A DNA stretch of 64,000 bases. Origin: Candidatus Saccharimonadota bacterium. Its GTDB lineage: Bacteria > Patescibacteriota > Saccharimonadia > Saccharimonadales > Saccharimonadaceae. The DNA is taken from assembly GCA_027311865.1 (NCBI GenBank), contig DAICYC010000002.1, positions 1-64,000 of the forward strand. Direction: 5' to 3'. Positions 35,001-61,399 of the stretch are shown here, one piece after another; within the stretch, counting starts at the first letter, position 1, and each line of letters opens with the position of its first letter. Under the pieces are notes generated by a model, which was not told where the DNA came from, made no database searches, and worked only from the letters and a program-made list of their open reading frames with translations. The position numbers and the translations under genes are program-made.

Positions 35001-35037
35001 GCGAGCCCTTGGACTCCATCCCAGTTTCCCGAGATGA

Positions 35038-35085
35038 CGCGTAAACGAACCTGAACGACGGGGTCAGTATTGTTTACGCGTTTTT
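35038..35085 (+). terminator. Terminator of the rpsF-ssb-rpsR-efp-tlyA operon
   Basis: CGCGTAAAC and GTTTACGCG form a perfect 9-bp stem, directly followed by TTTTT; the 25-nt loop can form a small CTGA/TCAG inner pair. The rest of the gap to ychF (35086-35213) shows no gene or clear promoter for the plus strand. Confidence 0.82.
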
Positions 35086-35213
35086 CAACCATGCTTTTCG
35101 CCGATTGGCTAATCAGGTTAGGTTGGTTGCCGAATTGTTATAACACTACGAAAAGTAGAGTTGACGCTAGTTTAACACGACAGTGAAAATTCTTACAACA
35201 CAGGGTGAAGTTA

Positions 35214-55824: not shown

Positions 55825-55900
55825 GCCGCTATAGCTCAGCTGGTAGAGCGGCGCTTTCGTAAAGCGTAGGTCTCCGGTTCAATCCCGGATAGCGGCTCCA
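55825..55900 (+). tRNA. tRNA-Thr (CGU)
   Basis: Cloverleaf: acceptor GCCGCTA/TAGCGGC, anticodon arm GCGCT-TTCGTAA-AGCGT with anticodon CGU, T arm TCCGG-TTCAATC-CCGGA, discriminator U73 and encoded CCA. The U73 discriminator fits the UGGA of the T-box-like element before thrS. A protein gene begins 19 nt downstream without a terminator. Confidence 0.94.
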
Positions 55901-58427: not shown

Positions 58428-58502
58428 AGACTGGTGAACTTAGATAATGATAGCACCCTGACGGCTTTGGTGCAAGCTAATGACAGTGGTGGAGGGGAGT
58501 GC

Positions 58503-58508
58503 TATAAT
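58503..58508 (+). promoter_or_regulatory. -10 element of the thrS leader
   Basis: TATAAT 192 nt before the thrS ATG; transcription would start near 58515 and produce a structured leader of about 185 nt. Confidence 0.65.
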
Positions 58509-58516
58509 CAAATCAA

Positions 58517-58618
58517 GCGCTGATGCGACCTAACCAATCGCGGAGCTTCGTCGGTGTGGCTTCGTACGAAACGAGCCTCATAAGTTAAACGTCCGGTGGA
58601 ACCGTCCGCATCAGTGGA
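58517..58618 (+). promoter_or_regulatory. T-box-like leader element of thrS
   Basis: GGTGGAACCG (58594-58603) matches the T-box consensus GGUGGNACCG. The variable base is A, complementary to the U73 discriminator of tRNA-Thr in this window. A closing helix CTGATGCG/CGCATCAG brackets the element, and a 5' hairpin GCGA..TCGC has ACC (a Thr codon) twice in its loop as possible specifier. The element is much shorter than standard T-boxes (about 100 nt), lacks a recognisable full stem I, and no T-run follows, so control would be translational. Position before thrS fits. Confidence 0.6.
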
Positions 58619-58700
58619 CCCGAGACATGTGATTGTTGGATTTAAGCGTCAGCTTGAAACCGTCGACCGCATGTTTCTTTTAATTAACAAAGGAGTAAAT

Positions 58701-60508: not shown

Positions 60509-61399
60509 ATGCTGGTGAGTCGGGCAAGCTCGTTGCCGTTAGTCGTGATTGTTGGCCCTACGGCCAGCGGCAAGACCGCACTGGCCATTGATATTGCTGA
60601 ACGACATAACGGTGAAATAATCTGCGCCGACTCGCGCACTGTTTATAAAGGACTTGATATTGGAACCGCCAAGCCGACTCCGGCCGACCAGGCGAGAGTG
60701 CCGCATCATGGACTCGATTTGGTTGAGCCGGATGAATCTTTCTCGGCGGCTGATTTCAAGTCCTATGCCAATCAGAAAATTGCTGAAATCCGTCAGCGGG
60801 GACGAATGCCGGTTCTGGTCGGCGGGACTGGGCTATATGTTGATTCGGTTATCTATGACTATCAATTCGGACCACCAGTGGATAAAGAGCGTCGCCAAGA
60901 GTTGTCGATGATGACTATCGAAGAGCTGCATGAATATTGCCATAAGCACAACGTTCCGTTACCGGAAAATATTTACATCAAGCGCTATGTGGTTCGGTCA
61001 ATTGAACAACAAGGACTTAATCAACAGAGACGAGACACTCCGATAAGCAATTCCATTGTTGTCGGAATATCGACAGATAGGGATGTGTTGAAACAAAGAA
61101 TTGTCCAGCGGGCGAGCCAACTTTTCGCGGCCGGTATGCTCGACGAAGCCCTCGAGGCTGGTCGCAAATACGGTTGGGATAATGAAGCTATGACTGGAAA
61201 TATCTACCGACTAGCTCGTCAATATTGCGATGGTGAGCTGACGCTGGATCGAGTCAAAGAGCGTTTCGTGACTCTCGATTGGCAACTGGCGAAGCGCCAG
61301 CTGACGTGGTTGAAGCGACGTGAACACATTCATTGGGATGAGCCCGATCAGTTGGTCGAGTATCTCGACCAGGCTATCGCCCTGGCGAACAATTCGTGA
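60509..61399 (+). CDS. miaA: tRNA dimethylallyltransferase
   Basis: Adds dimethylallyl to A37 of tRNAs reading UNN codons. 296 aa: P-loop VGPTASGKTALAIDIA, DSRTVYKGLDIGTAKPTP, RVPHHGLDLVEPDE, LVGGTGLYVDSVIYDY, and late LDWQLAKRQLTWLKR. The ATG follows the thrS stop by 2 nt; no Shine-Dalgarno except AGCTGTAAG, so coupling is likely. Length is normal. Confidence 0.96.
   Translation: MLVSRASSLPLVVIVGPTASGKTALAIDIAERHNGEIICADSRTVYKGLDIGTAKPTPADQARVPHHGLDLVEPDESFSAADFKSYANQKIAEIRQRGRMPVLVGGTGLYVDSVIYDYQFGPPVDKERRQELSMMTIEELHEYCHKHNVPLPENIYIKRYVVRSIEQQGLNQQRRDTPISNSIVVGISTDRDVLKQRIVQRASQLFAAGMLDEALEAGRKYGWDNEAMTGNIYRLARQYCDGELTLDRVKERFVTLDWQLAKRQLTWLKRREHIHWDEPDQLVEYLDQAIALANNS

Follow-up and report, generated by a model that had tools for sequence, protein, structure and literature searches.

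The leader of thrS in the window (the whole 64-kb stretch of DNA that was analysed) raises the question of whether a T-box riboswitch, proposed in the first-pass annotation in part from a 10-nt match to the T-box core, is encoded there and, if so, by what means it would control the gene. The core is indeed where it was placed: GGTGGAACCG occupies 58595-58604 of the + strand, in a leader of 186 nt, and is the sole match within the window. We rejected it as proof in its own right, because a chance match is too likely (0.29 expected; present in 23 of 100 shuffles). Moreover, the Rfam T-box model leaves the element unmatched, both at the gathering threshold and at E<=10. With a core match unremarkable in 64 kb and no T-box found by Rfam in the window, the case rests on comparison.

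The window belongs to an ultra-small genome of 639 kb in 29 contigs; by its threonyl-tRNA synthetase (ThrRS), the nearest named organisms are Candidatus Saccharibacteria, to which the host is assigned. In 101 relatives, ThrRS was searched for and the DNA upstream of thrS examined. The core recurs in nearly half of them, mostly 100-170 nt upstream of the start codon, and the variable base (N), which the pattern left free, is A in every thrS leader with the core. Using the core together with the 3' strand of helix A1 (see below), 60 distinct elements were gathered from the relatives and from named genomes; by eye, 57 have a hairpin of 4-5 bp whose loop, nearly always of 9 nt, holds ACN, and the hairpin of the remaining three departs slightly from this form and contains ACC. 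An alignment of 55 elements was the basis both for the helices and for a covariance model, R1. The features of the window are as follows:

58480-58508, + strand: extended -10 promoter, with 11 of 12 consensus matches
58515-58548, + strand: Stem I; all 8 of its 8 pairs covary and are 96-99.5% paired in the 55 sequences, as is repeated in 40 out-of-sample sequences
58515-58518 with 58545-58548, + strand: outer helix of Stem I, AAGC/GCUU
58519-58523 and 58543-58544, + strand: kink-turn, with a 3-nt bulge (58519-58521) and G.A/A.G pairs formed by 58522-58523 and 58543-58544
58525-58528 with 58538-58541, + strand: inner helix of Stem I, GCGA/UCGC
58529-58537, + strand: 9-nt apical loop, CCUAACCAA, with the specifier ACC at 58533-58535 and then the purine A58536
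58549-58579, + strand: pseudoknot domain, in which CGU (58549-58551) pairs with ACG (58566-58568) in the loop of a hairpin at 58556-58579
58580-58590, + strand: purine-rich linker, AUAAGUUAAAC, as placed by the alignment; the Stem III hairpin is absent from this copy
58591-58626, + strand: antiterminator
58591-58596 with 58620-58626, + strand: helix A1, GUCCGG with CCGAGAC; column pairs 122-171 and 123-170 covary
58597-58603, + strand: 7-nt bulge UGGAACC (the same in 51 of 55 elements), with the variable base A58600
58604-58607 with 58616-58619, + strand: helix A2, GUCC with GGAC; five covarying pairs
58622-58685, + strand: intrinsic terminator, a hairpin (58622-58677) and a U-rich tract (58674-58685)
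58689-58695, + strand: ribosome-binding site AAAGGAG, placed by sequence and outside all predicted helices
58701-60506, + strand: thrS, threonyl-tRNA synthetase of 601 aa (TIGR00418, 597 bits, E=5e-179)
55825-55900, + strand: tRNA-Thr(CGU), with discriminator U73 and encoded CCA

The promoter comprises a -35 element, ATGACA, at 58480, a 17-nt spacer, and TATAAT at 58503-58508 with TG before it. Transcription would start at about 58515, the first base of Stem I. The strong extended -10 element ends at 58508, and the leader should therefore extend over about 58515-58700; the start first given to the element, 58503, is the -10 box. The aptamer measures 112 nt (58515-58626), in keeping with an initial estimate of about 100 nt, and ends 74 nt before the start of thrS.

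Within Stem I, the kink-turn pairs are G.A in 55 of the 55 aligned elements and A.G in 53, and the ACC that had been noticed in a 5' hairpin loop is indeed presented by such a loop, GCGA-CCUAACCAA-UCGC (58525-58541). The specifier is ACC in 45 of the aligned elements, ACG in 5, ACU in 4 and ACA in 1, such that AC alone is constant, with A or C before it and a free third base; the base after the specifier is a purine in all 55, as it is in all 40 out-of-sample elements. The conserved GAG that has been described after the specifier of T-boxes (PMC2494555) is present in the thrS elements. The 3-bp pseudoknot is paired in 97% of cells, with compensations from CGU/ACG to CGC/GCG and CUA/UAG, and it may be homologous to the IIA/B pseudoknot of class II T-boxes. 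Stem III is seen by eye in 20 of the 55 elements, mostly flanked by RAGYG...AA, and is absent from the other 35; the window copy is among the latter, and accordingly has no Stem III between RRRxG and AA. The first A2 pair is G-C in the window, and is the G-U of the steric sensor in 15 of the 55 elements. For A1, the register given by RNAalifold (UGG with CCG) was replaced by CGG/CCG plus the distal pairs, of which 122-171 and 123-170 covary; both registers have the 3' strand in common.

The first-pass annotation had staked the proposal on covariation in relatives, and this is found in every helix: the two of Stem I, the 3-bp pseudoknot, A1 and A2 all show compensatory change. Across the 55 sequences, 94.2% of cells are paired and 17 of 22 pairs have double changes; the double-change cells number 200, compared with 55 in shuffles, a count reached by none of 500 shuffles. 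When the 3' partners are shifted one, two or three columns out of register, the paired cells fall from 94% to 21-45%. An out-of-sample set of 40 sequences, from genomes outside the 101 relatives (a few may be of the same species as named loci in the alignment), gave 94.3% of cells paired and again 0 of 500 shuffles, the alignment in this case being itself fitted to the model. All 40 of these hits lie directly upstream of thrS; their specifiers are ACC (38) and ACU (2), and their bulges UGGAACC (38) and UGGGACA (2). The latter two elements (L280:31-149 and L290:31-146) have N=G and a last base A in the bulge, and here N could form only a wobble with U73.

Against its own 639-kb genome at E<=10, R1 finds a single site, the thrS leader (E=4e-24). 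Within the order, 151 of 393 genomes contain an element that it matches, and the window copy, at 103 bits, is among the best of the 151 genomes, this copy also being in the training set of the model. Thus, of the two models that had been suggested as checks, the custom covariance model recovers the element and the Rfam T-box model does not. The latter (RF00230) reaches its gathering threshold (93) in 0 of the 101 relatives, with a best score of 49 bits; its sub-threshold matches include thrS leaders of relatives, namely, L006 (2.9e-8), L017 (5.3e-7), L021 (2.2e-6) and L026 (7.2e-5). One RF00230 match of 49 bits, L003 (G052:C4:77443-77642), has the bulge UGGUACC and precedes what appears by eye to be a putative valyl-tRNA synthetase gene.

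The variable base A was originally set against U73 of the tRNA-Thr encoded in the window, and the match extends to each of the three tRNA-Thr genes detected in the genome (CGU, UGU and GGU), which have U73 and an encoded CCA alike. Across the whole phylum, R1 matches 68 of 380 genomes, and 45 loci, chiefly from outside the order, were examined. Thirty-four are upstream of thrS, and the others include glycyl (L329, L332, L334, L339, L344 and L348), aspartyl (L343), prolyl (L341) and isoleucyl (L354) tRNA synthetase loci. The glyS leaders have the specifier GGC or GGA with N=A, and tRNA-Gly has U73 and a GCC anticodon in the one genome checked; the aspS leader has GAC with N=C, and tRNA-Asp of the same genome has G73. 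In the proS leader (L341), N=U and the specifier has no confident placement; A73 is usual for tRNA-Pro, and would fit this base. In the 0.64 Mb of the host genome itself, two T-box-like leaders were detected by the models, that of thrS by R1 and that of ileS by RF00230; the latter has AUC and UGGUACC, matching tRNA-Ile(GAU) with A73. Mismatched discriminators at other synthetase genes had been named as grounds for doubt, and N instead matches base 73 for glyS, aspS and ileS.

Further features of the ileS leader (L001:1501-1660; G000:C28:22068-22227) are a 7-nt apical loop, CUAUCAA, that contains the AUC, an S-turn-like GGGAAGAA/AGUAGAACCC and a U-rich tract; its RF00230 score of 36.4 bits is below the gathering score. 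At another locus, L333 (G580:C3:24642-25687), tandem R1 matches, the first with a GGC specifier, precede a short uncharacterized ORF.

The expression platform departs from the initial description, according to which no terminator followed the element and its action was probably translational. A hairpin of about -27 kcal/mol (58622-58677) is followed by UUUCUUUUAAUU; it escapes a simple scan because the loop limit of the scan is 8 nt. At its base, the 5' arm of this hairpin has the same GAGAC that A1 uses as its 3' strand. Under a fixed rule, 98 of 100 elements have a hairpin that shares the A1 strand and leads into a U-rich tract (mean fold energy -21 kcal/mol), compared with 50 of 200 shuffles (25%) that roughly kept the dinucleotides. 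Such sharing in 98 of 100 elements argues that the platform is probably transcriptional, not translational, and the ribosome-binding site is free of predicted helices.

Because of the covariation, the out-of-sample conservation of the specifier and the agreement of specifier and N at other synthetase genes, the sequences strongly support a short T-box-like element before thrS whose specifier is ACC and whose variable base, A, faces U73. We consider it very likely that this is a T-box riboswitch of minimal form, which would sense the charging of tRNA-Thr and act by transcription attenuation. This reading is built on the conservation of the anatomy, on covariation, on specifiers and discriminators that match, on helices that exclude one another and on the position before thrS; that the leader would bind tRNA, respond to its charging and regulate in the direction given below is carried over by analogy from the T-box family. 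Transcription would begin at Stem I, the short, kink-turned hairpin of which would display ACC in its apical loop, to be read by the GGU anticodon of tRNA-Thr. An uncharged tRNA would pair through its UCCA end with UGGA of the UGGAACC bulge, placing A against U73; with the bulge filled, A1 and A2 would close, GAGAC would be kept in A1, and the polymerase would continue into thrS. With a charged tRNA, the bulge would stay unfilled and GAGAC would enter the terminator hairpin, stopping transcription upstream of the ribosome-binding site.

Of the other readings, a translational T-box, in which uncharged tRNA frees the ribosome-binding site, has a precedent in the known T-boxes with a short Stem I, such as those of actinobacterial ileS, which are mostly translational (PMC7583486); it is nevertheless improbable here, as the site is in no predicted helix and 98 of 100 elements have a terminator, with its U-rich tract, that overlaps A1. 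Alternatively, the element might be functional in relatives and decayed in the host genome, trapped by a private pairing of 10 bp that joins the 5' portion of Stem I (58518-58528) to the A2 hairpin (58608-58617). The fold with this pairing has an energy of -36.1 kcal/mol compared with -14.1 kcal/mol for the consensus fold, in a calculation that gives no credit to the kink-turn, the pseudoknot, the tRNA or co-transcriptional folding. The pairing exists in the window copy only (1 of 55) and is absent from the other 54, which led us to reject the minimum-energy RNAfold structure that contains it. Loss has a parallel in sister species: in G004, G005, G011 and G053, which are without the element, a -10 box is seen by eye with roughly 10 nt between it and the thrS ATG, such that their thrS mRNA would be leaderless, the whole leader having been lost. 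Of these, G004, G005 and G011 belong to the same genus as the host, and the element is therefore not essential. Decay of the window copy itself is very unlikely, however, as all conserved positions are intact and its score, albeit from a model trained in part on this copy, is among the best of the 151 genomes.

Two further explanations do without tRNA binding by a T-box. The E. coli thrS operator is controlled by ThrRS, a protein repressor acting through tRNA mimicry, and the window leader resembles it in that it would control thrS and is related to tRNA; ThrRS might likewise bind its own leader, which contains CGU and other tRNA-Thr-like triplets, and repress translation. The E. coli operator has neither a T-box bulge nor a terminator. 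Mimicry of this kind is hard to reconcile with the mutual exclusion of antiterminator and terminator, or with the same architecture before glyS, aspS and ileS, where specifier and N are altered to match, such that we regard it as highly improbable. Attenuation by a leader peptide could draw on the Thr codons that are present in the leader, but it is the least credible explanation, and we give it almost no weight: the codon lies in an RNA loop between covarying helices, only its AC is fixed, the base before it being A or C and the third base free, and the T-box bulge would be left unexplained.

The attenuating T-box that we favour has its nearest known counterpart in the class II translational T-box of actinobacterial ileS (Mycobacterium tuberculosis and Nocardia farcinica; PMC7583486, PMC10651847), in which the specifier may sit in the apical loop of a short Stem I (PMC7583486). 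Common to both are a kink-turned, short Stem I, an apical-loop specifier followed by a purine, a pseudoknot before the discriminator domain, and a 7-nt UGGN bulge between A1 and A2. The thrS element differs in its Thr specificity, its terminator platform and its Patescibacteria host, and lacks an S-turn-bearing Stem II, the pseudoknot following directly on Stem I: of the class II S-turn (GAA/AGUA), which packs on the codon-anticodon duplex, GGAAGAA is found in 0 and AGUAGA in 1 of the 55 elements between Stem I and A1. Nor is the ribosome-binding site sequestered as in class II; it is free, and a terminator is present. Stem III, which the antiterminator needs in order to bind tRNA in those systems that have been tested (PMC7583486), is often absent. 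With class I transcriptional T-boxes (RF00230; Bacillus thrS and glyQS) the element shares the exclusion between antiterminator and terminator, the UGGAACC bulge read against U73 and the GAG after the specifier. Unlike them, it has neither a long Stem I nor the elbow-binding double T-loop, and its specifier is not in an internal loop, Stem I being of 34 nt with an apical specifier loop. As it is without the IDTM, the S-turn and often Stem III, yet has a terminator, we class the thrS element as a T-box variant nearest class II and outside both classes as defined. We think it rather likely, with less assurance than for the thrS leader itself, that a minimal transcriptional class of T-box is widespread in Patescibacteria, with a short Stem I, a pseudoknot directly after it in place of Stem II, and neither the elbow-binding motif, the Stem II S-turn nor, often, Stem III.

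One survey assigned T-boxes to Firmicutes, Actinobacteria, Chloroflexi, Deinococcus and a few Proteobacteria (PMC2494555). In TBDB, the search for class II members took in Actinobacteria, together with those class I hits whose Stem I was truncated (PMC7778990). We found no report of a T-box in Saccharibacteria, Patescibacteria or CPR in a search mainly of the open-access literature, which is weak evidence of absence. If our reading is correct, tRNA-based sensing of amino acids would be common in host-dependent CPR bacteria and missed by current models; a specifier hairpin, a pseudoknot and an antiterminator would suffice to read the identity and charging of a tRNA; and T-boxes without an elbow-binding motif would not be confined to translational control. 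An aptamer of some 110 nt that has a terminator and is without three elements to which importance in tRNA recognition is ascribed would offer a natural minimal test case.

The effect of the T-box may extend beyond thrS: miaA (60509-61396) starts two bases past the thrS stop codon, and the two genes are therefore probably controlled together. Elsewhere in the window, a LOOT RNA (RF03000) is found at 35003-35124 on the - strand, with a score of 64.2 bits, above the gathering score.
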